Positions 12,101 to 55,612 of a DNA stretch of 64,000 nt are shown here, piece after piece. The stretch is from a virus. The stretch covers positions 1 to 64,000 of the IMG/VR virus record IMGVR_UViG_3300020185_000041. One strand, 5' to 3'. Each line of letters begins with the position of its first letter. Within the stretch, counting starts at the first letter, position 1. Under the pieces are notes generated by a model. It had not been told where the DNA came from. It worked only from the letters and a program-made list of their open reading frames with translations, and did no database searches. Made by a program: the position numbers and the translations under genes.

Positions 12101-15100
12101 GCAGAGTTTACTGGGAGCGAAAAAGCAGCGGGTGATAAGAAGGGCAATGAATTCATGCTCGATGAGCAAATCCGACAGTTCTTGGAGGATGGATTTACTC
12201 CTAGCATGCAGACCGAGATCGATAATGCTCAGGCTCAGCGAGATGCTCTTGGAGCTTTGTATGAAGAAGGTCTACCTACTCAAAAAGAGTCAAACCGAGT
12301 AGGTAAGGCTAGAAGCAAAATACCTGGCCAGCTTCAGAAAAAGCTAAAGGCCATGGGCCTCGCGCCAAAGAAAGCGGCCCAAATGGCTAGAACATTAAAC
12401 GCCATGGCGGGGGAGAAGATTTTGTCTACGGATCCATCGTTCTATACAAACATGGAGCGCGGATCCCTGAAAGCCGCTGGCGCTGATATTGAGGAGGGTA
12501 AACCAGAATCTGAAAAAAGGCCTGAGAATCAGGATCCGATGTTTATAGAATCAGCAGAAGGTCTAGCAAATGTAGAATCTGTTACAACTTTTGAAAAAGG
12601 GAGACCCAAGACTTATGAAAGTAAATCAGATAAAGAATCTCCTCGTGCTCAAGGAAGTAACCGTAAACAAGCTAGTCGTCCAGGAGCAGAGCCATACTTC
12701 GCTTCAGGCAGAGATTATGGCAGAGTTAAAGATAAGCTGGAAAAAGTTGAGAGTAAACGAGACAGGCCGTCAGCTAAAAAGACTCTCAAGAAAACAAAGA
12801 ATTTAAGCAAGGATACGCTGAAGAGACAGGCAGAATCGCTCGAGAAAAAAGCACTAAACGATAGAGTCAGGCTTGCTAAAAAATCAGGGGAGGTTAATAG
12901 ACGCAAAACAGCAGTTCAAGCCCGCGACGCGGAGATGAAAAGGTTGGATTTGTTGCTCAAGAATATGAGCAAGTCCGACAGGATTAAACTCGGGCAAGCG
13001 ATTAACGCCGCAAAAAACGCTTTCCCCGACATTGAGACCTTAGACCGTAAGCTTGATGCCGCTATGGACGAGCTAGGTCCCGAAGCCTCCTCCGGTCAGA
13101 TTATATCCAGACTTTTAAATCTGGAGGAGCTTACAGAGCTCGCCCCTCGGTCGTTTACTAAAGAGATGCGTAAACTCCTCCAGGAATCACGAGGCAAGCT
13201 CGCGAGCAATGAGGATATTGAAGATGTATCGTTCGAAATTACCGATGAAATACTCGATATTAAAGAACAGCTTAGAACACGAGTTGATGAGATTGATAAG
13301 CAGATCGCTAGCCTTCAAAAAGGCGCAAGCCAAAAGCCAAAAGCCGCAAGCCAAAAGCCGGAGGCCGGAGAGACAACAGTTGAGGCCGAAATTGACGCAC
13401 TGAAAAATGCACGAAAGTTAGTAAAAACATACCTCGAAGCAGTAGCACCTGAAGAGTTGAGTATTGAGTGGAAAGACATCCCCGCTCACGCAATTTTCTA
13501 CGCTTCTAACGGTAAGAAGTATTCAGCAGAGCCTATGACTTTAGGACAGCTTGCCGATCGCCGGGACGGATTTAAGAAAGGACAACTTTACTACAAGAAC
13601 AGCAAGGGCGAACTCGTTGAGGCCAAAAATGAAAGTCGTACCGGGCAAGAGATTTTATGGGACCATATTTCCAAGTTTGATATCGAACAAACCGGTAAGA
13701 CAACAGACTTTGGATATACTAAAGACGGTGAACTGATAAAGCCTAGAAAGTACGAGCTTATATTGGAAGCGGTTAAGGCTTCGGCATACTTCCGTAAATC
13801 TGCAGCTCCTAAAAAAGACGGCGGCGTGGGAGCGGATCCCATGGGCGTCGCACGGTTTGAGAAAACAGGGCAGGGTCAATCATCTCCCAAAGGCTATGCC
13901 CGGAAAGACCCGCAAGGCTTCGAAGTTTCTTCTACGGCGAATACTAATATCGGAAAAGCTTTCAGCGCATTTAACGCTAAACTTTCAGACGGTAAATCCA
14001 TCGAGTATCATTATCAGGTTAATGTAAAAGGGTATCCCAGCATTAAAGCGGGCAAAGGTAAGCCGCCTAAGGACACAAGTATAGATAGCTACGGGGAATA
14101 CAAAAAACTTTGGGAGCGATTTGCTAAAGAAAACCCTAAAAAGATCAAAGCTCTAAAAAAAGCGGCTGCAGGCCGTGTTCTTACAGATCGCTATGCTACA
14201 ACCGAAGTTAATCAGGCCAGAGCTTTATACGAGATACTGGCGGAACCTAGCAACAGAGAAGCCCAAAAAGGATACCCCGCAGGCTATCAATCTAATAAAG
14301 GTACAAATTACGCAGCGCTTATCGCATCTCGTTTAGGCATTCTAAATTCCATGAAGCCGTTATCGAACGATCCTAGCCCTAGTGAAATATTGGCTTTGAA
14401 GATGGCTAATGGTCGAGCACTTGAATTGTTGGGAGATCCTACTGAGACTGAGAGAGATTTTAATAAAGCTATTTATATAGCACTCCTTGAGGAATTGGGT
14501 GTTGAGCAAAGCGGTATGCTTAGTGACCCCGTACTCGTAGAAGAGAGAGATTACGCAGAGACCGAGGAGTATACTAGAGGTGCTCTGGAGAAAATATCAA
14601 ACGGTACACCTGTCGTAGCTGCGATAGCGGGTATTCCAAGCACTTCAAAACGCCAAGCTTTTCAAAGACAAGTTCGTGATGACGACGCCGCGTCTGCTCA
14701 GACCGAAATTGTAGAGTCTAAAAAGATGGATCGTCCGGACGAGACAAACCCTGTCTGGGAAGAGTATGGAAAGAAGGGCCAAGAAAAAGCGGCGCCTGAA
14801 ATTAAAAGAAAAGGGACTAGTGAGGTCGTATTAAATATTAACGGTCTCAAAGTACCTTCAGCTAGAGCTTACAAAGCCCGCAGGCCAGACGAAGATTTAG
14901 ATAAACCCGTACCAGAAACCGAGCAGCACCAATCCTTTACTAGAGGAAAAGTTTATGAAACTTTTGACGTTGTAACCTCTTTTGCCGAGGGGCGTACTAA
15001 AAGAGAGGTCGCTAAGTTTAATAAAAACCGGACTAACATTCAAAAGTCTGAAGAGTTACCGACTAATCCGATATCTATCGAGCGTGAAAATGCTGACCTG

Positions 15101-18100
15101 TTATCAACTACTGACATTAACGCGGCTGAGTTTGCCGAGTGGTATATGTCCGGAAAGCCTGAGTCGCAGATGGAAGATTTGCAACTTGTTCCGTCTTCCA
15201 AAAATAATCAGCAAGCTAAAGGTGGTTTAGGCGAAGGTTTTTTACCGTATGTATTCTTAGATTTCGCTCGAGCTATGTACAAAAAACTAGGGCTCATAGG
15301 TATAGCTGCGGAAACTATGGAGCAAGCTCGCGAAGCTGAAAAAGCCGCGGCTAAGAGTGAAAAGGGTAAGTATAGCAATTTTAAATGGAATCTTGAACAA
15401 GGCGCACTTCTTGAAAACGGAAAGATCAATCCCAAACAAAAGATTTTCACTAAGCCTGCGGATCGCATGACCCCGGTTGGAATGGCGATTATCGCTAAGC
15501 CGATTGTACAAGCAGTAATCGATGCTCGTGGTGTAGATATTTACAATCAAATAGATAGGAGCGCTTCAGTTTTATTGCAGCGAGATATCGATAGGGCTGA
15601 GCAAGAGGGTAGTCGCGAGAGTCTACAGGATGGAGCCTTTGTTGAACGGGGTGAGGAGATGCAAGAGCTTGGAGCTGTTACCCAAGATATTTTTAATCCT
15701 GACAGCGAGACTTTATCTCAAGAAGATGCTAAGAAAGGTGTAGTCTCCGCTGCGGAGAAAGCTCTAGATGAAAATCCGGATGTTCTTAAAAATAAAGACT
15801 CAGTAAGCGACGAGCTGCTTGAAGAATTGTATTACTCAAGCACTTCTAACGACCTTACTAATGCGGCAGAAAAAGAGCTTCAACGACGAGGAATTAAAGC
15901 TTTGTATGTTGTTCGAGAAGAAACTGCAGACCAGCTCAATAAAATTCTCAACTCCGACGCCGGCACAGGTGTTTGGTATCGTGGTGATACTGCGGGGAGA
16001 ACAAAAGGTCTTATAAATTTAGCCCCCAACTATGAAACTTCACTAGGTTATGCAAGGGGCGGTTATATGGACGAGGAGGCGTTTGACCTTGATGGTGATG
16101 CAATGAATGCCGAAGCCTCCAAAAATACAAAAGCATTCCGTCCGCAAATTAAGAAAACGTTAGACCTTATTAAGAGTGCCGAAGACAGAAAGGTTTTAGG
16201 GTCTTTGGATGATATGGGTTATCGTTGGGCTAAGTCAGCCATAAAGATGATACGAGATCTCGAGGAGTACCCTAATTGGTGGGCGAATACAAAGCCCAAT
16301 GCTCAAGAAGCGTGGGAAAAAGCCTTAATACCGCAGCTTAAAAAACTTGGCTACGACTCTATTTTGTTCAGAGACGATTACCACGACACTTTAGCTGTCT
16401 TTGATGTTTCTCAGCTTAAACCAGTATCCCCCAAGACCCTCAACTCCGACGCCAAGATTTTAACCAGCGACGCAGACCCAAATCTTGCGAAAGCAACCTT
16501 GCTTGGTCGGATCGCGGGCGATAGCGAGCTGATCAAAGAATTTAAGGAATGGGCCGGAGGTAAAAAGCAAAGCCTGAGCAAAGGTAGTCTTAAAATGGAT
16601 CTGGTAGACCGTGCAGACCCGCTTAATCAATTAAACAAATTATTCCTTAAAGGATTTGAAGCTGTCGGACTGGACAGTTCGAACCCGCTATATAAAGCAT
16701 TAAATGTTTATGGTAAATACTACCAGTTCTTCGGCGAGGGTGATAACAGCGTAGAGCAAGCTAGACTTGAATATTACGAGCCTATGATGGAGCTCATGCG
16801 CGAGTATAATGTCGACGAAAAGAAAATTGGGGAGTACCTAAACGCCCGGGCAGCCCCGAGTAGAAACTTACAAATCGAAGCTAAAGCTTTGGAAGCTCTA
16901 AAGGAGATGGAAAAAGATCCAGAAGGCCCCAAAAGCGAGAAGTATAAAAAGATTGAGAAGTTTTTCTTTAATACGACTGAAGATGGTAAACGTACAATCA
17001 AGCGAGACTCGGGAATTAGTACTGAGACTGCGCTCAAGGTTGTGGCTGAGATGGAGAAAGAGCCTAGGTTCGTAGAGTTCTTAGACAAGTTTCTTATAAA
17101 ATATTATAAGATGAACAAGGAAGGTTTAACTACGCTTGCTAGCACAGGTATGATCGGCCAAGACACTGTTTCAAAAGAGGGTATAAATGAAGTTGAGGCT
17201 ATGAGAAAAGCGATGTCCCGCTTTGATTTTAAAGGGGGTAAAGCTGATAAGTACGGTAATAAATATAAATCTAAAGTATCTGCACTTGAGGATAATTATT
17301 CTTACTCTCCACTCCAGGGATTCGAAGGAGAGACCGAGAATTTCTACGAGCAAGAAGCAGCCTGGGAAGAGTTTGGCGCAGGATCAAATGCAACAGGAAA
17401 AGGGTTTGATCAGAAGAAAAGCGATCTAATCCTACAAGGCGCTTTTGGTAGGTATAAGTCAGGCGCACCTGACCCATCATTGACTTTAGGAAATTCTTTT
17501 AGGCAGCATATCTCTAGCGCCATTCTAGCTCAAAAAAATACAGTGGCTCAGAAATTTGGTATGGTTTACGGAATGATGCGTGCCGTAATTTACGACAAAG
17601 ACGGTAACGAACATTTCAATGCGAACCGGCTTACTGAAGAGGATAAGAATGATCCGATATACCAAGCATACGAAGAACTAATTAAATTAAAAGAGCCCGG
17701 TAATGAGACCGCTTTTAAAAACCTAAAATCTGAGTTCGACCAAATTTTTGACCCGAAAGGTTTTGAAGAATCTGAAACGGTGACCCAATACGAACTACAT
17801 CAAACAGGAGAGATTGGAATTGTTCGCCGCGAGATGAGTCAAAAATTTAAGAATGATCCGACAGCGTTTACCTATCGAAGAAACGGGATTCCCCAATTCA
17901 TAAAATTCACAAGCAAAAGCGAAGGTCTTAGGATGGCGGATACAATGAAGAATTTAAGGTATGAGAATTTACCCCAGATCCTTCAGGGCTTTAATACAGT
18001 GACTCGTGGAATGGCCCAGATGTTTACCTCAGCCAATCCGGCTTTCATACTACCCAACTTCTTTCGAGATGTTGCAACTGCCGCGATTCATTTAGGTGAA

Positions 18101-19804
18101 GATGATAAAAAGGTTCTAATCAAAGACGCATTAAACTTTAAGAATCTTAGCGGTTTCATGAAAGAAATCTATAAGGTTGAACAAAAGATCCATAAAGGAA
18201 TCAATCCGAACACTAAAGATAAAGAGATCATGAATCTCTTAGCATCTGGAGACCCGAAAAAGATACTAGCGTCCGGAAACCGTCAGGCCATGTTCCAATA
18301 CTTTAAAGAGGCTGGTGGTAAGGTTGGATATTTTAGGCACGAATCTCTCCCTGAGAAGATTAAACAGATACAAAAAGATCTTAAAGGTAAGAAGGGATGG
18401 ACAAAGAAAGGATGGAAAGGAATGTGGCAGACCATAGATTCTATGAACACTGCCGTGGAAAACTCCATCCGTGCATCTACATTTTGGGCAGCGATTAAGG
18501 ATGGAAGATCTACTGACGAAGCAGCTCACATCTCAAGAAATGTAACCGTCGACTTTAATCAAAAGGGCAACCTCACACAGACCTTTGGCGCACTCTATGT
18601 ATTCTTTGGTGCTTCGGTAAATTCCATGCATAGATTTTATAGGACCTTAAGTCGCAGGACTCCGGCCCAAAGAGCAGCTCTTATTGGTGGAATGGCCAGT
18701 GCTGCACTTATCGTAAATCTGTTTAATCGATTAATGGACGACGATGAGGACGAAGAGATTCCAGACTACGACACTATTAGCACATATAAAAGAGATACTA
18801 ATTTTATTCTTCCTGTACCCGCTGGTCTTCCTGACTTCTTTAACGACGAGAAAGATACTGGATACTTCAGTCTGCCACTTCCCTTAGGTTACAATTTATT
18901 TTGGACAATGGGTCAGGTCATGGGAGATATGGTCGCAAAGAATGTATTTAATAGGGGAGGGATGGGCTTCTTTGGTAGTGCTACTCGTGTACAAGAAAGT
19001 TTCTTAAATGCATTCAATCCCGTTGGCGGTGCTAGTTTAATAACAGCAGCATTTCCAACAGCCGTTACTCCTCTTGTTGAATTGTACGCGAATAAAAACT
19101 TCATGAATAAACCGATCCGCTATGCTGATCGTCCATTCGAAGTACCTAAACCCGCACATATGCAGGATCCTAGGAGTACACCGGATCACTGGACTAAACT
19201 ATCCCGATCGATCAATGAATTCATGGGTGGTAGCGATGATGTAAAAGGTTCGCTCGCGGGCATGATGGGTAAAAACCCATTATACTACAATTCTGACGAG
19301 GATATAGAATTTGATATCTCAGGTAATCAGATGAAACATTTACTTTACGGATATCTTGGTGGTCCTGGTCAGATAGCTGACACTCTATTTGGTGGTATGT
19401 TTTCTGCAGCCAAAGGAGATTTATCCGTGAAAAACATTGGTGACATCCCAGTAGCTAATCGTTTCATGCGAGCCACGACCTACGGATCTGCGACCCGCAA
19501 CTCATTTCTTAATCTGCGTGACGCTACCAAGAATGCCGAGAAGGTTATCAAGTCTGCAAAGATTATAGGACCGAAGGTTTATACCACCGCACTGAACGAC
19601 AATAAAAAACTCTTACAACTATCATCGCAGATTAGTGCATTTGATAAACAGAAGAACAAGATGCGCAGACTGAAAAAACAGATCGAATCTTCTAAGGCGT
19701 TGTCTGATAACCAGAAAACGCAACGGGTGGACGAGTTGCAGAAGAAAGAGTTAACTCTTATGATTGCGGTCATAAAGAAAGCTCAGGCTCTCGGAATTTC
19801 ATAA
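9164..19804 (+). CDS. giant polyvalent ejection protein (zincin, ART-like and LPD38 domains)
   Basis: 3546 residues, one intact frame. Residues 1-420 are helical. Residues about 540-570 form an Ala/Gly-rich hydrophobic stretch that could insert in membrane. HESGH at 874-878 with a downstream AEEWF (near 945) is a zincin metallopeptidase signature. Residues 1040-1450 are charged coiled coil. YRGD near 2272 with GYDSILF and AVFDVSQLK (to about 2420) matches an ADP-ribosyltransferase fold as in the ART-PolyVal family. The last 600 residues, with NPAFILPNFFRDVATAA, NVTVDFNQKG, a DDDEDEE turn and GYFSLPLPLGYN, match large polyvalent protein domain LPD38. Such proteins are thought to enter the cell with phage DNA and act on host targets. 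Catalytic activity is inference. Confidence 0.85.
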   Translation: MSMFDELDLGAKDYSGKGEGSGFEKFLSKPSPRPYQPFGGPMQQAYQPQPEPVDYSYGEAPVDQGPTFYDDLDAYEQLKNGHKQISQFSRENSKSAKRYEDLYGEFMDNEFKPFFESVGGFGDFESDDEYISAVDEIYKSNLKASQQEDGWLGASDEKTRALEGLKNFQQWDHPNGMRAKFLRLKAEKDKRREVADRAKDEEFKFFEQLTNISIPAREALDESLKSRNKAPGSAKKMNEMLDGMSWEQPIVGYDGEVQNLESVDPRAKINPAIGYDGQGNKSSKAQKERVAAAMRGDIKGVLSRRQHIAKGRQLRDKGFFFSESGLLDGRPIGMSRRDVDLLDIDDMRKAGMTSFQGKPLDQAMADLGGEERLEMAKVMQSVYSTKSNYEDAQLKFLKAAGGPKADKLRDAMEAAREDMQKTIGLAASYGLDNELFEQAETTGWLSAMGNAVQRGALMSEMSNYTPDFLTNTLDADEMQRFIEIASEIEKLPTSSTMKRVKETKSDGFLDAMGNLLFDNPAAIPEMFVESLSSFLPSTIKWLLPSAAAGAAAGTIVAPGAGTAAGAAIGARASWGVASFVLEASGMALEGMQELNIDWKNPKVFAAAWTNESIRSKIQKKMVQKGTPIAIADMLTGMMAGKVMGVVNHTGNAVFKGGKLLNKEAFNAANGAVPRFKLMQKTRNAAAELGADSFMGMSGEYLGQWASKEPGEDWDWDAIAAEGLVGVGPGAVGAALEMRGPRANYFGNAPIDITGETQTETGSTGTVNRAGYQANYQTFNDPESMMAHFEDVVPQGTTPEDQDRRAASLDFTRRWVTTMFKIRPEAMAGLKVVISDRTPDANLKNRGTFESRDGNNIIYLNEKEFAQDPMGAMLHESGHFARIMMLKDEELTKLWGGLKEGEQLDAYTQYYTKDYERSFEEHDEKTQKKIRRAFNKTDNEVLAEEWFSYQWARVLNSNYKPDKSVKGLEKFYSGLVRPLFAEFTGSEKAAGDKKGNEFMLDEQIRQFLEDGFTPSMQTEIDNAQAQRDALGALYEEGLPTQKESNRVGKARSKIPGQLQKKLKAMGLAPKKAAQMARTLNAMAGEKILSTDPSFYTNMERGSLKAAGADIEEGKPESEKRPENQDPMFIESAEGLANVESVTTFEKGRPKTYESKSDKESPRAQGSNRKQASRPGAEPYFASGRDYGRVKDKLEKVESKRDRPSAKKTLKKTKNLSKDTLKRQAESLEKKALNDRVRLAKKSGEVNRRKTAVQARDAEMKRLDLLLKNMSKSDRIKLGQAINAAKNAFPDIETLDRKLDAAMDELGPEASSGQIISRLLNLEELTELAPRSFTKEMRKLLQESRGKLASNEDIEDVSFEITDEILDIKEQLRTRVDEIDKQIASLQKGASQKPKAASQKPEAGETTVEAEIDALKNARKLVKTYLEAVAPEELSIEWKDIPAHAIFYASNGKKYSAEPMTLGQLADRRDGFKKGQLYYKNSKGELVEAKNESRTGQEILWDHISKFDIEQTGKTTDFGYTKDGELIKPRKYELILEAVKASAYFRKSAAPKKDGGVGADPMGVARFEKTGQGQSSPKGYARKDPQGFEVSSTANTNIGKAFSAFNAKLSDGKSIEYHYQVNVKGYPSIKAGKGKPPKDTSIDSYGEYKKLWERFAKENPKKIKALKKAAAGRVLTDRYATTEVNQARALYEILAEPSNREAQKGYPAGYQSNKGTNYAALIASRLGILNSMKPLSNDPSPSEILALKMANGRALELLGDPTETERDFNKAIYIALLEELGVEQSGMLSDPVLVEERDYAETEEYTRGALEKISNGTPVVAAIAGIPSTSKRQAFQRQVRDDDAASAQTEIVESKKMDRPDETNPVWEEYGKKGQEKAAPEIKRKGTSEVVLNINGLKVPSARAYKARRPDEDLDKPVPETEQHQSFTRGKVYETFDVVTSFAEGRTKREVAKFNKNRTNIQKSEELPTNPISIERENADLLSTTDINAAEFAEWYMSGKPESQMEDLQLVPSSKNNQQAKGGLGEGFLPYVFLDFARAMYKKLGLIGIAAETMEQAREAEKAAAKSEKGKYSNFKWNLEQGALLENGKINPKQKIFTKPADRMTPVGMAIIAKPIVQAVIDARGVDIYNQIDRSASVLLQRDIDRAEQEGSRESLQDGAFVERGEEMQELGAVTQDIFNPDSETLSQEDAKKGVVSAAEKALDENPDVLKNKDSVSDELLEELYYSSTSNDLTNAAEKELQRRGIKALYVVREETADQLNKILNSDAGTGVWYRGDTAGRTKGLINLAPNYETSLGYARGGYMDEEAFDLDGDAMNAEASKNTKAFRPQIKKTLDLIKSAEDRKVLGSLDDMGYRWAKSAIKMIRDLEEYPNWWANTKPNAQEAWEKALIPQLKKLGYDSILFRDDYHDTLAVFDVSQLKPVSPKTLNSDAKILTSDADPNLAKATLLGRIAGDSELIKEFKEWAGGKKQSLSKGSLKMDLVDRADPLNQLNKLFLKGFEAVGLDSSNPLYKALNVYGKYYQFFGEGDNSVEQARLEYYEPMMELMREYNVDEKKIGEYLNARAAPSRNLQIEAKALEALKEMEKDPEGPKSEKYKKIEKFFFNTTEDGKRTIKRDSGISTETALKVVAEMEKEPRFVEFLDKFLIKYYKMNKEGLTTLASTGMIGQDTVSKEGINEVEAMRKAMSRFDFKGGKADKYGNKYKSKVSALEDNYSYSPLQGFEGETENFYEQEAAWEEFGAGSNATGKGFDQKKSDLILQGAFGRYKSGAPDPSLTLGNSFRQHISSAILAQKNTVAQKFGMVYGMMRAVIYDKDGNEHFNANRLTEEDKNDPIYQAYEELIKLKEPGNETAFKNLKSEFDQIFDPKGFEESETVTQYELHQTGEIGIVRREMSQKFKNDPTAFTYRRNGIPQFIKFTSKSEGLRMADTMKNLRYENLPQILQGFNTVTRGMAQMFTSANPAFILPNFFRDVATAAIHLGEDDKKVLIKDALNFKNLSGFMKEIYKVEQKIHKGINPNTKDKEIMNLLASGDPKKILASGNRQAMFQYFKEAGGKVGYFRHESLPEKIKQIQKDLKGKKGWTKKGWKGMWQTIDSMNTAVENSIRASTFWAAIKDGRSTDEAAHISRNVTVDFNQKGNLTQTFGALYVFFGASVNSMHRFYRTLSRRTPAQRAALIGGMASAALIVNLFNRLMDDDEDEEIPDYDTISTYKRDTNFILPVPAGLPDFFNDEKDTGYFSLPLPLGYNLFWTMGQVMGDMVAKNVFNRGGMGFFGSATRVQESFLNAFNPVGGASLITAAFPTAVTPLVELYANKNFMNKPIRYADRPFEVPKPAHMQDPRSTPDHWTKLSRSINEFMGGSDDVKGSLAGMMGKNPLYYNSDEDIEFDISGNQMKHLLYGYLGGPGQIADTLFGGMFSAAKGDLSVKNIGDIPVANRFMRATTYGSATRNSFLNLRDATKNAEKVIKSAKIIGPKVYTTALNDNKKLLQLSSQISAFDKQKNKMRRLKKQIESSKALSDNQKTQRVDELQKKELTLMIAVIKKAQALGIS

Positions 19805-22919: not shown

Positions 22920-23834
22920 ATGAAGTACGGAAAGGCTGTAAAAAAAGCTAAGGCGGCACGCTCTGACCATCGAAAGGCCAAACTTCCATTGGTTACATCG
23001 AGAAGACCTAAGTTAGACCCTGCTAGTTTCGTAACTGTCGAACGCCAGCACGATCCGCTCGGTCGTTTTGGCGCATCTTTGGGTACTATATTTTTTGATT
23101 CCGACGGTGATGGGTCTGAGGATACCTATGGTAGAAGAAGAAGGGTTGGATCTGTTGGTGGAGTATTAGAAGTTCCCACCTTTGGACCTATCGCTCCCCC
23201 GGTCTCTGGCCCAACCAATCTTTTAGCTGCCGAAATTCTTTCCGCTCCGGCCTCTGGCCCTAGCTCTTTAATCGCATCGATTGTCGCCCCGGCTAATGGC
23301 CCGACTAGCTTAGATGCATCCGTCAATTCTCCAATTGCTGGCCCGACAGGATTAGGCGCCTCCGTTAATGCCCCGGCTAATGGCCCAACAGGCTTAAATG
23401 CATTTGAAGGAATTCCAGACGCACCTGTTTCCGGCCCAACGGGTTTAGGTGCATCCGTCATTGCTCCGGCTAACGGCCCAACGGGTTTAGGTGCATCCGT
23501 CATTGCTCCGGCTAATGGCCCGACAGGGCTAGGCGCATCCGAAGTGTTTACCGCGCCAGCTAACGGCCCGACGGGATTAGGCGCATCCGTTAATGCTCCG
23601 GCCGAAGGTCCTACAGGGTTAGGCGCTGCTGAAGTGTTTACCGCTCCGGCTAGTGGCCCGACCGGTCTATCTGCGGCAAAGCTTACGCTTAATATTACTA
23701 TCGAAGCGAATCAGGAAACCATCGTTGCTAAGACTACCGAGCCGGCCGGAACCATTGAATATGCTTCGGATGTCGGATATCTCTTTATATATGATGGAAC
23801 CCAATGGCGCCATACTGACGGGGGTAACAGCTAA
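22920..23834 (+). CDS. tail/fibre protein with GPTxLxA repeats
   Basis: 304 residues. The N-terminus is basic (residues 1-35), followed by DSDGDGSEDTYG, a calcium-loop-like acid patch. Residues 97-253 hold eleven copies of a 14-residue unit of the form GPTGLGASVNAPAN, resembling repeated first strands of Fn3 domains. The last 50 residues (NITIEANQETIVAKT... to YLFIYDGTQWRHT) are a small beta module that recurs in several neighbouring genes. Probably a fibre or adaptor in the receptor-binding apparatus. Confidence 0.7.
   Translation: MKYGKAVKKAKAARSDHRKAKLPLVTSRRPKLDPASFVTVERQHDPLGRFGASLGTIFFDSDGDGSEDTYGRRRRVGSVGGVLEVPTFGPIAPPVSGPTNLLAAEILSAPASGPSSLIASIVAPANGPTSLDASVNSPIAGPTGLGASVNAPANGPTGLNAFEGIPDAPVSGPTGLGASVIAPANGPTGLGASVIAPANGPTGLGASEVFTAPANGPTGLGASVNAPAEGPTGLGAAEVFTAPASGPTGLSAAKLTLNITIEANQETIVAKTTEPAGTIEYASDVGYLFIYDGTQWRHTDGGNS
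23208..23680 (+). repeat. 42-48 bp coding repeats (GPTxLxA units)
   Basis: Eleven consecutive in-frame units, mostly 42 bases and some 48, each encoding GP(T/S)xLxA plus a seven-residue linker ending in AP. Related units occur at 42569-43261. Confidence 0.9.
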
Positions 23835-41410: not shown

Positions 41411-44400
41411 GTGAGGTTTTTCCGGATACCATCCTTCACCGGGATCGAAGCGCATCGCGATGACGCCGATCGCGGCTCCCTTCGTTTAGTCGAGGGTTGC
41501 TTACCGCACGGGCCGGGCGGTTTGCGTAGCGGTCCTGTGTGGAACAAGATCGGCGATGTTCAATATGTCGCGGATGGTGACCAAAATAAAATATCTTCCG
41601 CAGATGATGGATTAGGAAATTCTATAGTCTTTGTATCCCGACAGAACGAGGTTCACGATATAGCACTATTAACCACTGAACATACCGAGCTAGAATCTTT
41701 CACAGAGCAGGAAGAATTTACATTTGAAAATCCATCGCTTTATACCGCTGGTCCTGCAAATATTACTCCAATAGGTAATAAACTTTATGCCGTCGGAGAC
41801 GGGAGTAATGGATCAATATTTGTAGGTAAAGGCCCGGACGATACTTTTGAAGTTTTTCCAGACGAAAGTTTATACAGTCAAGAATGGTCAAGGTTTCCAA
41901 AATGTCAGTTCTTTGTTCAAGGGCCTAAGAAAACAATCTTTGCAGCAGGCAATCCAGATAAACCATTAACCGTATACATATCAGAGCCTGCAGGCCTGAC
42001 CTCTCCGTATCGAGATACTCCTTACAGTACTGAGGATACAACCTATAACCAGGGCGTTCTTTCGACCGTCGACATTTTAGGTTCGAATGCGAGCAAAATA
42101 ACCGCACTTTCAACCCGAGGAGATCAAGTAGTAGTACATACGGACAAAGGATGTCATCTTCTATATGCACCAGCTCCAGACCAAGCAAATACCGGATATC
42201 GTGTTGAACAAGCACCAGCGACTAACTTCTCAGCAGCTGTAAATTCAAAAGTTGTTTCCCGAGCATCTGGATCATTGACATATTGGGTAGGGCACGACGG
42301 CCAAGTTTACAAGGATGAGGCCGCAAGTCGTGGGTCGGAGGACTTAAGAAGTCGCGCTGATGAAGACCAAGCAAACTGGAAAAGTAAGGGCGTATGGGAA
42401 GATGAATTACCTACAGACCTTACTAAATCTTTTGCTCTGTACTCCCCACAGACCGGGATGTACTGGTTCTTTGTAGAGTCCGAGGAAAAAAAAACTTTTG
42501 ATCTAATTCCAAGAACCCCGTTGAGGGGGCCTAGGAATTTAATAGCTCGTATACTAGCCCCGTTTTTCGGACCAACAAACCTAGAGGCAGTAATCCTTCC
42601 GCCAGAGGTTGGGCCCACAAATTTAGAGGCTGAAGTTCTTCCGCCAGAAGTTGGACCAACAAACCTAGATGCAGAAGTTTTACCACCAACTGAAGGGCCT
42701 ACAAATTTAGAAGCTTTAGTACTTCCGCCGGAGGTTGGACCTACAAATCTAGAAGCTATAATTCTACCACCAGAGGTTGGACCTACAAATTTAGATGCAG
42801 AAGTTTTACCACCAGAAGTCGGACCTACAAATTTAGATGCTGAAGTTCTCCCGCCAGAAGTAGGACCTACAAATCTAGAAGCTATAATTCTACCGCCAGA
42901 AGTCGGACCTACAAACCTAGAGGCAGTAATTCTCCCGCCAACTGAAGGTCCTACAAATTTAGATGCAGAAGTTTTACCGCCAGAGGTTGGACCTACAAAT
43001 TTAGAGGTAGTAATTCTCCCGCCAGAGGTTGGACCTACAAATTTAGAAGCTATAATTCTCCCTCCAACTGAGGGTCCTACCAATTTAGAGGCAGTAATTC
43101 TCCCTCCAGAAGTCGGACCTACAAACCTAGATGTAGTAATTCTCCCGCCAGAGGTTGGACCTACAAATTTAGAAGCTATAATTCTACCGCCGGAGATTGG
43201 GCCTACAAATTTAGATGCGCTAGTACTTCCGCCGCAAGTCGGGCCAACTAATTTGCAGGCTGTTGAACTACTAGGTCCTTTCTTCGCTAATGTTGAAAAT
43301 GTTGTCGGAGGGTGGAATTTAACCGGGTATTCTTCAGTAAAAAATACAGGTAACTGGACATCGTTTTTAAATTCCTACAATTTAAGAAATAATACTGGAA
43401 CACCTGTGACTTTAAGTGTTCGGGCAGAAGTTGACAGCCAACTCGTTGACGCACATTTCCACAAAATATACATACCGCAAGAGGTTATATTTAATCCCGA
43501 TATCGATGATCCTTACTGGGATTCTGTAAACCGTTGGTACTATAAATCTGAGGTTGACGGTTTAACATATAATCAAGATGCAACCGTTGAAATAATATGG
43601 GCCGCATCAGCCGTAGCTCCTTACTTAGGACCAACAAATTTACAAGCTTCTATACCCGACGATTTTACCCCTGAACCAGAAAGTAAATATATTGTCGTAG
43701 AAATATCTGAAGAGGGTACAAACCTTGATGACTTCAACGGTTGGCAAAGTAATGAGCTCGGATACAGCGATCCTGGAGGTTTACTCACAGTTGAAGAAAC
43801 TAGATACCTTGGGACTACGAGCGAAAAATCCGGAGTAAAACACAATGTCGGAGCTCAAAGAATAGAAATCGGAGGGAGGAACGGGCATCTTAATTCCGTA
43901 TATCATCCAGGAATTCTTGTAAGAAATGATAACGGATATTTTATGAATGGATCCGCTTACACCATGTCCGCTGTGGCTAATGAAGGTTGGTCGTTTACGG
44001 GCTGGGATATTAAGCACCTAAACACTACTCCAGAGTCTGAAAGGCTTGGTACTGCTGCGGGCGAAGTGCAAATTGTTAGTGGTGCTTTAGACAACCCTAC
44101 AGATCTCACTCTTTTAGTAACTGACCATACAAACTATATAACCGTAAAAGCTGAATTTATTGACCTCGCCCCCGACGCTGATGAAGTGCCCGATCCCGGA
44201 AACAAATATAACTTAGAAAATTGCGAGTGTGTAAGCGATAGCGGGTCTGGATTGGGAGACTTTGACACGCTCCAGGAGTGCGAAGATTGGAAAGCAGCAA
44301 CTACTTTTAACTGTGTAGACGGGGAGTGTGTAGAAGATGATATGCAAATGGGTACATATTCAAGCTGCGCAGATTGCCAAGCAGCTTGCGGATCCGGCGG

Positions 44401-44497
44401 GTCTGATCCATGCGATGACATAGCTTTCGATTATGATATAAATTGTACACACATCGGACCCGACATGGGCGTTAAAACTCAATGCGACTGCCAATAA
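41411..44497 (+). CDS. tail nozzle-like protein with GPTNLEA repeats, 1028 aa
   Basis: A GTG start. Residues 1-370 look like a beta-propeller-type tail tube/nozzle domain: RGSLRLVEGCLPHGPGGLRSGPVW at the start, then repeated small strands (TPIGNKLYAVGDGSNGSIFVG; KITALSTRGDQVVVHTDKGCHLLY) as in P22-gp10 or T7-gp12-type proteins. Residues 387-615 hold 17 copies of a 14-residue unit of the form GPTNLEAVILPPEV. A beta domain, one more isolated GPTNL unit, and a cysteine-rich C-terminus (about 935-1028, some fourteen Cys) follow. Confidence 0.65.
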   Translation: MRFFRIPSFTGIEAHRDDADRGSLRLVEGCLPHGPGGLRSGPVWNKIGDVQYVADGDQNKISSADDGLGNSIVFVSRQNEVHDIALLTTEHTELESFTEQEEFTFENPSLYTAGPANITPIGNKLYAVGDGSNGSIFVGKGPDDTFEVFPDESLYSQEWSRFPKCQFFVQGPKKTIFAAGNPDKPLTVYISEPAGLTSPYRDTPYSTEDTTYNQGVLSTVDILGSNASKITALSTRGDQVVVHTDKGCHLLYAPAPDQANTGYRVEQAPATNFSAAVNSKVVSRASGSLTYWVGHDGQVYKDEAASRGSEDLRSRADEDQANWKSKGVWEDELPTDLTKSFALYSPQTGMYWFFVESEEKKTFDLIPRTPLRGPRNLIARILAPFFGPTNLEAVILPPEVGPTNLEAEVLPPEVGPTNLDAEVLPPTEGPTNLEALVLPPEVGPTNLEAIILPPEVGPTNLDAEVLPPEVGPTNLDAEVLPPEVGPTNLEAIILPPEVGPTNLEAVILPPTEGPTNLDAEVLPPEVGPTNLEVVILPPEVGPTNLEAIILPPTEGPTNLEAVILPPEVGPTNLDVVILPPEVGPTNLEAIILPPEIGPTNLDALVLPPQVGPTNLQAVELLGPFFANVENVVGGWNLTGYSSVKNTGNWTSFLNSYNLRNNTGTPVTLSVRAEVDSQLVDAHFHKIYIPQEVIFNPDIDDPYWDSVNRWYYKSEVDGLTYNQDATVEIIWAASAVAPYLGPTNLQASIPDDFTPEPESKYIVVEISEEGTNLDDFNGWQSNELGYSDPGGLLTVEETRYLGTTSEKSGVKHNVGAQRIEIGGRNGHLNSVYHPGILVRNDNGYFMNGSAYTMSAVANEGWSFTGWDIKHLNTTPESERLGTAAGEVQIVSGALDNPTDLTLLVTDHTNYITVKAEFIDLAPDADEVPDPGNKYNLENCECVSDSGSGLGDFDTLQECEDWKAATTFNCVDGECVEDDMQMGTYSSCADCQAACGSGGSDPCDDIAFDYDINCTHIGPDMGVKTQCDCQ
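42569..43261 (+). repeat. seventeen 42-bp coding repeats (GPTNLEA/DA units)
   Basis: Consecutive in-frame 42-base units encoding GPTNL(E/D)A(I/V/E)(I/V)LPP(E/T)(V/E). Variation is limited to a few alternating residues, with a small set of unit types reused in mixed order, as expected from unequal recombination. Confidence 0.95.
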
Positions 44498-49889: not shown

Positions 49890-50415
49890 ATGTTTCCACC
49901 TCTTCGATTTTGCTGTCTACTTCCAATTCTAGATCGGTCTCGTAGCAGCTTAAGTTATTAATTGTTCCGTGTATAAAATTCTCAGACACTCCCGCCTCGG
50001 ATATGTGAGTATCATTGTTCTCGTCTAGTTTAGTCCGCCTGACTTCAAGAATTGTACCGCCGATCTCTCGTATGAACTCAGCCTCATTATCGAAGCGTAC
50101 ATCATCGATCACCGTTTTTACATGCGGGTTTATCCGTCTTCTCATCGCGGTAATCCACACATCCTGAGCAATCATATTCCTCGCAAATTCAGTACCTAGA
50201 AGTTGCATGATTTCGCGTGGGCTCTTCCCATACTCATCAAGCTTGATTTCTTTTAATACCGGATCATTAAGCTCAGAATCACGAAGACCCATAGCTCGAA
50301 GCATGTCTTTAATAGGACTTGCAAAGCTAAGAACTTCGTATCCGTATTTGCGTTCAAGTATTCGTGCGACAGAACTTTTTCCGCACCCTTTTCCACCAGC
50401 TAACCCTATAATCAT
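49867..50415 (-). CDS. deoxynucleoside monophosphate kinase
   Basis: 182 residues. P-loop GLAGGKGCGKSS at 4-15, the dNMP-kinase layout EVLSFASPIKDML, then RMxQLLGTE-like REIMQLLGTEFARN, and VIDDVRFDNEAEFI, as in T4 gp1-type enzymes that phosphorylate dNMPs for phage DNA synthesis. ATG 50415 is chosen because AAAGGAGT lies 8 bases upstream and it overlaps the PolA stop (ATGA). A 19-codon upstream extension is not needed. Confidence 0.82.
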   Translation of the reverse strand: MIIGLAGGKGCGKSSVARILERKYGYEVLSFASPIKDMLRAMGLRDSELNDPVLKEIKLDEYGKSPREIMQLLGTEFARNMIAQDVWITAMRRRINPHVKTVIDDVRFDNEAEFIREIGGTILEVRRTKLDENNDTHISEAGVSENFIHGTINNLSCYETDLELEVDSKIEEVETYGLIYNT

Positions 50416-52313
50416 TTCGTGTACTCCTTTGAGATGATCGCATCGCTGCTGAGTGGTACATCTTTCATCCACTCCGGCCCGGTCATCATGATTTTTTGAA
50501 TTTCGTTTTTTATCTCCTCAGCGTTCTCCTCTTCTACCTCAACGACGACTTCATCATGAACATGCAAAACAACGTCATACCCACCATCGTAGAGATTTTT
50601 TAGAATGAACCCGAAGCAGTCCCTCGCAAGCGCTTGGACAGAATTTTGAAACAAGTTAGCACCGTACATTTTTGTCCGTCTGATGCTTCCCTTCTGAGTT
50701 GCACAGGTAACTCCGTCCGGTTCATGACGACAGCGGAAATAATTTAATGTCCGTCCGCTCGGGATTTCTATTTTAAAATCATCACCTTCATTAGCAGAGG
50801 TCTTCAGACGCTTATCTAAATTCTTCCAAGAGGATGTAATCTTTGGGTTTTTGTCCCGGAAATCTTGAACCTGAATGTATGCATTAACCCATTGGCGACG
50901 CTCGTCTGCACTTAAGTTAGAATAGGCCGAGAACTTACCCGGCTGATACTTCTTGGCAAATTCCTGGAATCTTAATTCGTCCTGACGGCTGAAGCTGGAA
51001 TCTAGAATCTGGGTCTGTCCATATGCCTTAACTGTCTCGGCAAATTTAAACCATCCACTCCCGTATCCAAGTTGAAGAACACGAACCTTAGCCAAAAGAT
51101 AGAGCTCGGGATCTTCATCCTTTAATTTTCCACCAGTCCATCCCATTGTCTGACGAGCGTGCGCTTCATACGGGCTCATGCCTTTGGACACGAGCTCAAG
51201 GAAATCATCATCGCCAGCGAGGAATGCAGTCAATCTCGGCTCGATTTGAGATAAATCAGATATGACTAAGGTCTTTCCTTTGGCCGGGGATACGACATTA
51301 CGAATGTTAACTCCGTATTTAGTATCCCGTGGCATATTCTGTACATTGAAGCCGGCGTCACCTGACCATCTTCCGGTAGCATCTGCTCCGAAATATTTCA
51401 GATTGTAACTCATGCGACCTTCGTCAGTTAATCTATCCTTAACAGATTTGGTCCTCTGCAAGTGCATGTTTATGCGATTATAATTTTGCATGGCGGATAC
51501 AAAGGTGAGCTTGTCTCCATGCTCTTTGATCCAATCGGCTAGCTCTTCGCTGTCCTTGGCGAGGCTCTTAGGAGGTTCTACACCAGCCTTGCGGCACTCA
51601 ATTGCCATAGCTTTCTTAGAATAGACAACATACTCCTTCTTGGTATCCGGATCGATCTCTCCATACCATGGAAGACTGGTCTTAGCCTCGAATAAATGTC
51701 CTTCTAATTTATCTACTCCGTCTTCTACCTTTCGTAGATCAACAGGCAATCCGCGATAAGCCATTGTCCGTGTTTGATGGGACAACAGTCTTTCGGTCTC
51801 AGGCCAAAGGGGCCAAAGCTTTTCCCAGATTTGATATGTGTATTTCGCATCGTCCAGGGCGTACTGAAGGACAGCTTTGCTTTCATCCATGGCAATCATG
51901 TCATCCCATGTCTTACCCTTCATGTTATTGCGGACCTCTTTGTCCATGGATACGCCAAGGATTTCCTTAGCCGAGCCCTTTAGGTTTCTTTGATATTGAA
52001 AATATACGCACATATCTGCCGTGCAGACCCATGAAACATCAATGTCGGGTATGATCCCGAGCTCCTGGCAACGCTCAAAACAGCGCTGATCGAATGATGC
52101 GTTGTGTGCGATAAAAGTATAGCCTTCGAATTTCTTCCAATCCTTAAATTCATCGGTTCGCCCGACATAACTATGTTCGGGGCTCCATATTGAAACTAGA
52201 TAGGCATCGAATTCTGGGTGATGCACGTACTGGTAGGTGCTACTACCTTGGATGCTATAGTCCTTCGAATAAAAGGTTTCAAAGTCTAATGCTGCAAATT
52301 TTTGTTTACTCAT
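50412..52313 (-). CDS. polA: DNA polymerase I, family A, with 3'-5' exonuclease
   Basis: 633 residues. The exonuclease has ALDFETF (D10, E12), FIAHNASFDQ and YALDDAKYTYQIW. The polymerase has motif A SDLSQIEPRLTAFLAG, the O-helix KVRVLQLGYGSG and motif C HVHDEVVVEVE. At the position equal to E. coli Phe762 the residue is Leu. In viral PolA surveys Leu762 goes with temperate or slow-replicating phages, which agrees with the integrase here. No 5'-3' exonuclease domain. The leader carries a hairpin and a CCACACACCA motif. Confidence 0.93.
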   Translation of the reverse strand: MSKQKFAALDFETFYSKDYSIQGSSTYQYVHHPEFDAYLVSIWSPEHSYVGRTDEFKDWKKFEGYTFIAHNASFDQRCFERCQELGIIPDIDVSWVCTADMCVYFQYQRNLKGSAKEILGVSMDKEVRNNMKGKTWDDMIAMDESKAVLQYALDDAKYTYQIWEKLWPLWPETERLLSHQTRTMAYRGLPVDLRKVEDGVDKLEGHLFEAKTSLPWYGEIDPDTKKEYVVYSKKAMAIECRKAGVEPPKSLAKDSEELADWIKEHGDKLTFVSAMQNYNRINMHLQRTKSVKDRLTDEGRMSYNLKYFGADATGRWSGDAGFNVQNMPRDTKYGVNIRNVVSPAKGKTLVISDLSQIEPRLTAFLAGDDDFLELVSKGMSPYEAHARQTMGWTGGKLKDEDPELYLLAKVRVLQLGYGSGWFKFAETVKAYGQTQILDSSFSRQDELRFQEFAKKYQPGKFSAYSNLSADERRQWVNAYIQVQDFRDKNPKITSSWKNLDKRLKTSANEGDDFKIEIPSGRTLNYFRCRHEPDGVTCATQKGSIRRTKMYGANLFQNSVQALARDCFGFILKNLYDGGYDVVLHVHDEVVVEVEEENAEEIKNEIQKIMMTGPEWMKDVPLSSDAIISKEYTK

Positions 52314-52419: not shown

Positions 52420-53136
52420 TCAGCTAAAATCCTTGAGCCATTCGACGAACTTTTTGTCGTGTCTAGATCCCTTGCGAAGCTTAGGAGCATGGACGACATT
52501 GTTCCCGGCTTTTACCTTTTGAGTAGTAAGCTGGAACGATCCGACATTGATGCCGTCACGATAATACATTTTCGCAGCCGTAAAGATAGGTACCGCAGCA
52601 TGCTTATATGCAGTTCCTTTAATTCTCCAGATTGCGAAGGCATAATTATTCCCGTCGAATTCGAATGGAAAGTTAGTTGGATCCTCGCCCTTAATGCAGA
52701 CAAGTGCATCAGCGATTGGTTTCCAGCTCGCCGGTGTGCCATCCGCCCAGACGAAGGTAGCTTCCGGATCTGCTTCGAGTACCTCAGCCTTGCTGTTAAA
52801 GATCCGTGGAATCTCGCCGGAATCCCATTCGATATTCTCTTCGAACATCTTACCGATCCGGCAGACAGTAATCTCTACATCGCTCGTTCCATCACTAATA
52901 TCGAACTCGCCATCGAGAACGATGGTTCCTTTCTTGAATGTCTCAGACAGCGCGCCAACACCCTGAGCAATTTGCAGCTTAGGAAAGCTGATATCGCTAG
53001 CATCGAAGTCACCCACCAATCCCGCGCCGGGCTGAATCGTCAATGATGCAGTAGGACTGCCCTCAATGATGTCACCGCTCGCGTTTGTTAATGCAGTCTC
53101 TTCGGACTGCTTTTCTGATAATGCTGTTTTAGCCAT
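52420..53136 (-). CDS. putative ssDNA-binding or replication accessory protein, 238 aa
   Basis: A 25-residue acidic, disordered N-terminus, then a beta-rich domain with DISFPKLQIAQGVGALSETFKKGTIVL and VEITVCRIGKMFEENIEW, and a second beta segment with FEFDGNNYAFAIWRIKGTAYKHAAVPI. The layout and the place between PolA and a Cas4-like nuclease suggest an OB-like ssDNA-binding protein, but no named family is certain. A good Shine-Dalgarno site (AAAAGGAG) lies before ATG, unlike most early genes. Confidence 0.6.
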   Translation of the reverse strand: MAKTALSEKQSEETALTNASGDIIEGSPTASLTIQPGAGLVGDFDASDISFPKLQIAQGVGALSETFKKGTIVLDGEFDISDGTSDVEITVCRIGKMFEENIEWDSGEIPRIFNSKAEVLEADPEATFVWADGTPASWKPIADALVCIKGEDPTNFPFEFDGNNYAFAIWRIKGTAYKHAAVPIFTAAKMYYRDGINVGSFQLTTQKVKAGNNVVHAPKLRKGSRHDKKFVEWLKDFS

Positions 53137-53200: not shown

Positions 53201-54046
53201 CTAAAGGTTTCTACTTTTCCGTAAATATGGACTCCGATCCCGATCCTCTTCTGCTGGCAATATTCCTGACTCTTCAAGGCTCGATTCTATAGTGCCCCGA
53301 GCGGTCTTCTTTTCTCCGCGAGGTAATTTCTCTGAGTATTTCTTAGCAAGCTTCGGAAGGCTAATATCGCAAGCATTCATGAATTCATCAGGGCTGAGCA
53401 AATGTTCAACCGCATCGTATGCACCTTGAGTATCTTCAATCTTCAAGCTAGCAGTTCGATAATGTAGATCGTACCCTGGAATCTCTTCACCCTGTTCGAC
53501 CGCCAATTTTGTTGCCTGTTTCTTTGCAGCAGCCTGCCATTTATCCACAACCTGTGCGACATTGAGCATCTTGGCTAGGACGACAGGATTCTCAACATTT
53601 TCCGGGCTGTAACTATCCCATAGGCTCATCTCAAAGTCTTCAACACTCGCGCTATATTTCTTAGCCAATGGAAGCATCTTTTCAGATAGGGCAGGGCATG
53701 AAAGTTTGTGCTTACAGTACCTACAACCTTCGGTATTAGGTATCGCTTCGGCGGTCTCAAGCTCGGCCTTTTCAACTATCATGTTTATGCGCAGTCGAAT
53801 ATCTTCCATGTCCGAACGGCTATAATCATGAGTCAATACCTCATCACGGCGCGGTATTATAAAATGAACCGTAGCAGTCTGTAACTCTGGGAATTTATCC
53901 ATGACCCCAAGAAGATACGCCTGCCCCTGTATGTTCACATCAGCATCGTCAATTTCTCCAACGCCGAATTTAAAATCAACCAAGTCAACATGAGTACCTT
54001 TAATGATTACTCGATCAACTGTTCCAAATATCTTGTCGCTACTCAT
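53201..54046 (-). CDS. C-terminal half of a split Cas4/DUF2800-like nuclease
   Basis: 281 residues that start directly at the catalytic core: GTVDRVIIKGTHVDLVDFKFG gives the D...DxK acids and lysine, IQGQAYLLGVM is the QxxxY motif, and CRYCKHKLSC gives three cysteines of an Fe-S cluster. The N-terminal part of this family (helix with GTxxH and the first cysteine) is absent here but is encoded by the gene at 54220-54492. The C-terminal 120 residues are helical. It would act as an exonuclease subunit in replication or recombination. Confidence 0.75.
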   Translation of the reverse strand: MSSDKIFGTVDRVIIKGTHVDLVDFKFGVGEIDDADVNIQGQAYLLGVMDKFPELQTATVHFIIPRRDEVLTHDYSRSDMEDIRLRINMIVEKAELETAEAIPNTEGCRYCKHKLSCPALSEKMLPLAKKYSASVEDFEMSLWDSYSPENVENPVVLAKMLNVAQVVDKWQAAAKKQATKLAVEQGEEIPGYDLHYRTASLKIEDTQGAYDAVEHLLSPDEFMNACDISLPKLAKKYSEKLPRGEKKTARGTIESSLEESGILPAEEDRDRSPYLRKSRNL

Positions 54047-54233
54047 ACCAAGCCTCCAGGTTATCTTTTAATAATCTCATTAATTCTTTTTCCATTTTGA
54101 ATGCGTACACAGGTAGCACATCGTCAGGAGTATTAATATAAAGCCCGTCAACGCGCCGTATAATCCCAGAAGCCAACACAGGACTTCGATCAAAGAGAAG
54201 GACAAGTCGATATCCATCGTTACTCTCCTCCAT
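54039..54233 (-). CDS. small protein inserted between the nuclease halves, 64 aa
   Basis: The frame overlaps the N-half gene by 14 bases and the C-half gene by 8 bases, so all three are coupled. The product is mixed alpha/beta and acidic with a helical C-terminus (EKELMRLLKDNLEAWYE). No Shine-Dalgarno site precedes ATG 54233. A competing 45-codon hydrophobic frame starts at ATG 54217 behind GGAGGAG, so which frame is used needs proof. Function unknown. Confidence 0.5.
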   Translation of the reverse strand: MEESNDGYRLVLLFDRSPVLASGIIRRVDGLYINTPDDVLPVYAFKMEKELMRLLKDNLEAWYE

Positions 54234-54492
54234 GACGAATGGTTGTTCGTAATTCTTTATAGATATCATCTGCGGCATCCTCCAAGGGTTGAATATAATC
54301 AAGGCAGGATACGACCAATCGAATCTGCTCGTCGTTTAAACCATCCATATTTCCGGTCTCTGCAGCCGAGTGAAGCATCGTACCTTCCTCAGCAAATATG
54401 TTGGTCTCATTACTGCTTCTATAGCTAGGGCAGATCTCTACATATTTTAATGTGCTCGGCCCGAGCTCATGATGTTCTTCAGGACTGCTCAC
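54220..54492 (-). CDS. N-terminal half of a split Cas4/DUF2800-like nuclease
   Basis: 90 residues. GTG 54492 is chosen because GGAGGT lies 8 bases upstream. HELGPSTLKYVEICPSYRSS followed by AEEGTMLHSAAETG is the N-terminal part of Cas4/RecB-like DUF2800 proteins: a helix ending in C-P (first Fe-S cysteine) and the G-T-x-x-H motif. It ends where the family continues into the GT-x-D strand, which is encoded by the gene at 53201-54046. The two products probably assemble into one active nuclease. Confidence 0.7.
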   Translation of the reverse strand: MSSPEEHHELGPSTLKYVEICPSYRSSNETNIFAEEGTMLHSAAETGNMDGLNDEQIRLVVSCLDYIQPLEDAADDIYKELRTTIRHGGE

Positions 54493-54670
54493 TATTAAAT
54501 ACCTCCGATATTGCCCAGTCATTGGGGATTATTTCTTGGTCGACAGTCACAGGATGAAAGCCGGCGGCCACAAGCAAACCTTTCACAGCAATTAAGACCT
54601 GATCAAGGGCACAGTCGTCTGCGATATCCGCACTAAATTCAGCACCTAGATTCTCAATTGTTATCTTCAT
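54479..54670 (-). CDS. conserved small phage protein, 63 aa
   Basis: ATG 54670 is chosen over a longer upstream frame. The pattern MKITIENLG...ADDCALDQVLIAVKGLLVAAGFHPVTVDQ is a common small phage protein beginning MKI.IE and ending in GLL.A.GFHP.TV. Function unknown. It overlaps both neighbours by 14-17 bases. Confidence 0.65.
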   Translation of the reverse strand: MKITIENLGAEFSADIADDCALDQVLIAVKGLLVAAGFHPVTVDQEIIPNDWAISEVFNSEQS

Positions 54671-55449: not shown

Positions 55450-55525
55450 TGGAGCTCCCAATCAGATTCGAACTGATGACCCCATCCTTACCATGGATGT
55501 GCTCTACCAACTGAGCTATGGGAGC
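55450..55525 (-). tRNA. tRNA-Thr (anticodon GGT)
   Basis: A full cloverleaf of 76 bases with encoded CCA: acceptor GCTCCCA/TGGGAGC, D-stem GCTC/GAGC, anticodon stem CATCC/GGATG with loop ATGGTAA, T-stem ATCAG/CTGAT with loop TTCGAAT. Anticodon GGT reads ACC and ACT. It lies between the helicase gene and a CACACC-led gene in the leftward operon. Confidence 0.95.
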
Positions 55526-55536
55526 GAATTTAAATT

Positions 55537-55612
55537 TGGTGGAGCCAGACGGGATCGAACCGACGACCTCCTGAATGCAAATCAGGCGCTCTTCCAACTG
55601 AGCTATGGCCCC
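55537..55612 (-). tRNA. tRNA-Ala (anticodon TGC)
   Basis: 76 bases with encoded CCA: acceptor GGGGCCA/TGGCTCC (one G-U), D-stem GCTC/GAGC, anticodon stem CCTGA/TCAGG with loop TTTGCAT, and T-arm with loop TTCGATC and one T-T mismatch in the stem. Reads GCA. Eleven bases separate it from the tRNA-Thr gene, so they are likely co-transcribed. Confidence 0.93.

Follow-up and report, generated by a model that had tools for sequence, protein, structure and literature searches.

A phage-type nuclease gene recovered in an IMG/VR virus record is divided into two separately encoded halves, with a third, small gene (M) lodged between them and overlapping both. The upstream half (N-half) carries one cysteine and the first catalytic motif, while the downstream half (C-half) carries the remaining catalytic motifs and three further cysteines. 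It is probable that the two separately translated chains form a single PD-(D/E)XK exonuclease of the Cas4/AddB type, with M most likely an accessory component. Nucleases of this type are described as being held by an Fe-S staple that joins both ends of one chain. In the arrangement reported here, such a staple would link two polypeptides.

Layout of the locus

The analysed stretch, referred to here as the window, comprises 64,000 nucleotides (positions 1 to 64,000) of the 68,875-base record IMGVR_UViG_3300020185_000041. Three overlapping minus-strand frames occupy 53201-54492 in the order N-half, M, C-half:

54220..54492, minus strand: N-half of the DUF2800/Cas4-like nuclease, 90 aa, with C21, the AEEGTMLH motif and strand beta-1 (KELRTTIRHGGE)
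54039..54233, minus strand: middle gene M, 64 aa, a conserved family with a predicted small beta-barrel
53201..54046, minus strand: C-half of the nuclease, 281 aa, with FGTVD, DFK, QxxxY and CxxCx5C
54501..54506, minus strand: GGAGGT, ribosome-binding site of the N-half, read from the sequence
54053..54057, minus strand: GGAGG, ribosome-binding site of the C-half, read from the sequence and lying inside the M coding sequence

The N-half begins with GTG at 54492, where most relatives have ATG at the same codon, and ends with TAA (54222-54220). M runs from ATG at 54233 to TAG (54041-54039), and the C-half from ATG at 54046 to 53201. The N-half and M overlap by 14 nt, M and the C-half by 8 nt. 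An earlier note on this DNA had given the coordinates of the two halves, a 64-codon gene at the junction overlapping both halves, and a GGAGGT belonging to the N-half itself; all hold on the sequence, the GGAGGT lying at 54506-54501, 8 nt upstream of the GTG.

Catalytic and cysteine motifs divided between two chains

The C-half matches DUF2800 (Pfam PF10926) with 80.8 bits (E 1e-22; curated cut-off 21) and the PHROG 69 exonuclease with an E-value of 4e-30. The N-half alone matches PHROG 69 weakly (E 0.014). The RecB-type motifs (GTxxH, D, DxK, QxxxY) are all present but divided over the two halves. The cysteines follow a layout of one N-terminal residue (C21, N-half) and three C-terminal residues (C108, C111 and C117, C-half). 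Across 18 aligned N-halves, C21, E36-G37-T38 and H41 do not vary; the same is true of FGTVD, D24, K26, Q40, Y44, C108, C111 and C117 across 18 aligned C-halves. Counting split and intact forms together, each motif is kept in at least 60 of 62 members; the QxxxY pattern is missing from one deep split lineage, L170. Values of dN/dS for both halves lie mostly between 0.01 and 0.08, indicating strong purifying selection on each throughout the clade.

These data uphold the reading of the earlier note, which was largely right about the split enzyme: a Cas4-like nuclease in two parts, the N-half with the first cysteine and GTxxH, and the C-half with GTVD, DxK, QxxxY and the three remaining cysteines. 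Because the invariant cysteines and motifs divide between the halves, any four-cysteine cluster must draw on two chains, and an Fe-S cluster, if formed, would need two proteins. The nuclease would thus be made as two chains that most likely co-fold into an active enzyme of the phage replication-recombination module. The N chain would supply the first Fe-S cysteine and EGTxLH, and the C chain the three further cysteines along with the catalytic D, DxK and QxxxY.

Conservation of the split

Searching viral contigs with the C-half recovered 32 relatives (61-99% identity), and N, M and C are separate overlapping frames in every such relative with readable upstream sequence. Profile searches found the same order in 33 other distinct sequences of the main clade and in six deeper lineages (L093, L176, L170, L171, L172 and L174). 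The order recurs in a Tara Red Sea MAG contig (L199), which was assembled separately and came from a scan of genome contigs. Independent, near-identical contigs all retain the split. The earlier note had considered a sequencing error unlikely, and error or chance is ruled out by the many independent contigs sharing the three-gene layout.

Searches among isolated phages gave no example of the split; for the C-half, the best matches among isolates reach about 35% identity at most. The isolate search gave one weak match for the N-half and no match for the likely capsid protein of the window. The carriers of the split form a family of uncultured bacterial viruses that are apparently marine.

Intact relatives and the position of the break

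Alignment to intact relatives, which the earlier note had proposed as a check, shows that L168, L072, L078 and others fuse the same N and C segments at the same joint. The N-half is therefore the true N-terminus of a Cas4-like enzyme, and its membership in an unrelated family is excluded. In L168 (3300020438_000053), both segments lie in a single frame with the joint KVVY-REDGSS-IFGTVD; its N segment is about 70% and its C segment about 61% identical to the halves in the window, and it matches DUF2800 with 103 bits. L072 is intact as well, and its linker is longer, at about 23 residues. In L070, a sister of L072, N and C overlap directly without M, or the short contig contains a single frame error. 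As L168 is a close intact relative, the split is not indispensable.

A structural model of L168 (mean pLDDT 85) has hairpin strands at residues 76-86 and 93-104 flanking the split point. By this model, the split forms are broken at the tip of the beta-1/beta-2 hairpin, a position occupied in L168 by a short turn. The modelled fold is that of an AdnA/Cas4/RecE-type nuclease, matching AdnA (Z 15.3), the Argonaute-associated Cas4-family protein ACE1 (Z 11.4), AddA (Z 11), the SSO0001 Cas4 (Z 10.1) and RecE (Z 10); this assignment of the overall fold is drawn from L168 only. The Fe-S region is poorly predicted, pLDDT falling below 50 for residues 192-196 and 201-210, and the model is therefore silent on the cysteines coming together.

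Genomic neighbourhood

The genes around the nuclease resemble a known phage module in which DUF2800 lies beside gp2.5 and polA (PMC8093625):

55648..56964, minus strand: SNF2/DEAD-like helicase, a few genes upstream of the nuclease; the helicase that is fused to the nuclease in a sister clade shares its Pfam domain (Helicase_C)
55450-55612, minus strand: two tRNA genes, Thr(ggt) and Ala(tgc), between the helicase and nuclease genes
52420..53136, minus strand: 238-aa protein in the usual place of gp2.5, with no Pfam match
50412..52313, minus strand: family A DNA polymerase; together with the intervening gene and the nuclease, it resembles the duf2800-gp2.5-polA module

Elsewhere in the window, a single plus-strand frame at 9164-19804 encodes 3546 aa, very long for a phage of this size. 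Two plus-strand frames on the structural-gene side (41411-44497 and 22920-23834) encode proteins with long runs of PPEVGPTNLEA-type repeats, which also hold open an antisense frame at 42307-43083.

The middle gene

In the collection scanned, the M family occurs only between N and C. The main-clade M profile matches the M genes of L170 (4e-12), L176 (2e-8) and L093 (6e-7). Once these three are added to the profile, the M of L171 is matched at 1e-4 and likely belongs to the family. For the M-like frames of L172 and L174, homology is suggested by position more than by sequence. M evolves faster than N or C, with dN/dS of 0.08-0.53 in pairs of moderate divergence, the closest pairs having too few changes to judge. 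M is nevertheless under purifying selection, which rules it out as a junk frame.

Searches with M against Pfam, PHROG and PDB sequences gave no convincing match, the PDB hits being mostly designed 'Cake' repeat proteins over 24 aligned positions. A 75-aa model (mean pLDDT 83) predicts four strands and a helix, weakly resembling SH3, Tudor and Sm/Hfq barrels (best Foldseek E 0.15, to Hfq; best Z 4.1, to an SH3-like fold). A homing endonuclease was considered and rejected, given the small modelled barrel and the lack of any Pfam or convincing PHROG match.

Three further features of the M region were considered. The conserved C-terminal Trp is not safe as a protein motif, because its codon overlaps the IFGT codons of the C-half in one subgroup and adjoins the C-half start in the other. 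A GAGTARCGA-like repeat at both junctions in the window is too short and too variable to be taken as a target duplication. A 45-aa hydrophobic, membrane-like frame (54080-54217, minus strand) lies inside M in its +1 frame; it stays open in the subclade of the window and in L064, and the dN/dS of M is higher in that subclade. This frame may be a by-product of the codons of M.

M could simply be a passenger, a small gene in a permissive loop that is kept for an unrelated purpose by a nuclease that tolerates the split, a reading with a substantial chance of being correct. Its faster evolution would fit, as would the layout of intact relatives. No M lies between the nuclease segments of L168, L072 or L070, and a search of the L168 and L072 records found none elsewhere; M is therefore not needed for the nuclease in general. 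A passenger is harder to reconcile with a single family held at a single place, and only there, over great divergence.

Further evidence on this question comes from the sister clade (L074-L092), where the nuclease is fused behind a helicase in one frame of about 814-830 codons. An example of this natural helicase-nuclease fusion is the 824-codon frame L078:2336-4807, which joins a Helicase_C helicase to the DUF2800 nuclease. In about half of the sister-clade sequences, the nuclease is cut just before strand beta-1 (...RRKTGV* / MTTIAKDLREIRVKIDLG). Examples are L074:3100-4819, L075, L076, L084 and L088. The gap of roughly 320-1000 nt holds 1-3 other small, variable genes and not M; a search for an intron gave no Rfam match. 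This cut falls at another loop, so that two different loops of the enzyme have been sites of splitting; M is kept only in the clade of the window. The variable contents of the second gap are in keeping with a passenger.

That M serves the nuclease as an adaptor or accessory subunit is the weakest step of the proposed mechanism, and the choice between accessory and passenger is roughly an even one. A more elaborate version is less likely than not. It would have a three-chain nuclease whose split halves share one Fe-S cluster, with M as a dedicated third subunit that sits at the broken hairpin and links the nuclease to the helicase or a DNA-binding partner, and with assembly and activity tied to translation of N, M and C.

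Evolutionary history

On a tree of the joined N and C segments, intact L168 and L072 are nested inside the split group, and a topology that makes all split forms one group is rejected (AU p 1e-71). This nesting makes one old split followed by two re-fusions the simplest history, requiring three changes, in which the split and its M are gained once and lost twice. The split thus has apparently been long retained and undone at least twice. The order of one gain and then two losses is likely rather than proven, because the root rests on a long branch.

That long branch, together with the position of L168 at the base of the main clade, leaves some room for separate origins, with related M genes inserted repeatedly at the same site and L168 and L072 as ancestral intact forms. 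Such a history is unlikely. It would require four gains rather than one gain and two losses, and a homologous M would have to land at the same place every time, the M genes of L170, L093 and L176 being recognisably of the main-clade family (E 4e-12 to 6e-7).

Translation of the three frames

The strength of each ribosome-binding site was taken as the pairing energy upstream of the start, for which the window background has a mean of -3.5. The GGAGGT of the N-half in the window reaches -10.9. Among 18 relatives, mean energies are -8.2 for C starts, -6.0 for N starts and -4.1 for M starts. C mostly starts with a strong site inside M, and M mostly starts without any; in the window, M has no clear site of its own. 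As the pairing energy of M starts is near background, translation of M probably begins by coupling to the end of N, while the 3′ end of M carries the ribosome-binding site of C.

The overlapping frames could in principle be joined, M being +1 relative to N and C +1 relative to M in most members, so that programmed +1 frameshifting or bypassing might yield one polypeptide with M as an inserted domain. This is very improbable: most members provide C with an ATG and a ribosome-binding site of its own, the relative frames vary (C and M overlap by 4 nt in L027, and M starts 2 nt past the end of N in L170), and junctions inspected by eye have no common slippery sequence. A group I intron or intein was also rejected, as the insert of about 190 nt is almost all M coding sequence, and the N stop and C start have their own codons. 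Least credible of all is a decaying pseudogene whose halves no longer cooperate, for although the coding sequence is interrupted, the catalytic and cysteine motifs are all kept and both halves remain under strong purifying selection across the clade.

Comparison with known split enzymes

Phage enzymes that are split by inserted genes and still work are already known, as is the DUF2800 module. In Aeromonas phage Aeh1, an inserted gene likewise divides an enzyme at a functionally critical place (nrdA-a / mobE / nrdA-b), and the two NrdA chains work as one enzyme, as the nuclease halves most likely do. In Aeromonas phages 25 and 44RR, the DNA polymerase gene 43 is similarly encoded in two separate parts (43A/43B) that make up one active enzyme, and the phage 25 split is associated with an inserted gene (PMC2988022). 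The split NrdA of Aeh1 is fully functional, and in phage 25 the two gene 43 products purify together and are active (PMC2988022).

The locus described here differs in several respects. The Aeh1 insert is an HNH homing endonuclease, whereas M, kept clade-wide, is predicted to be a small beta-barrel and has no match to a nuclease, and the divided enzyme here is an Fe-S-type nuclease. Gene 43 encodes a different enzyme again, and what intervenes there is either an untranslated spacer or a homing endonuclease of the seg type (PMC2988022).

Like the Cas4/AddB/AdnA/Dna2 family, the split nuclease has the PD-(D/E)XK motifs and four cysteines, and the modelled fold of its intact relative matches that family. 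In Cas4 and AddB, the one N-terminal and three C-terminal cysteines are all on one chain (PMC3466216), but here they are divided 1+3 over two. The C-half and its gene neighbourhood agree with the duf2800-gp2.5-polA module; DUF2800 is, however, one gene in intact relatives and in the isolate annotations examined, and here it is two with M between. A search for a split Cas4 or split exonuclease gave no relevant paper in the literature library covered. New in this case are an Fe-S-type nuclease as the divided enzyme, the distribution of its cysteines over two chains, an insert other than a homing endonuclease, the long retention of the arrangement and its apparent repeated reversal.

Two phage clades have the same nuclease chain cut, each at a different loop, and in one of them a single small gene family has occupied the cut over great divergence. 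The arrangement is a natural experiment in whether two distinct polypeptides can be kept together by an Fe-S cluster, and it provides a naturally split nuclease open to study in laboratory strains.
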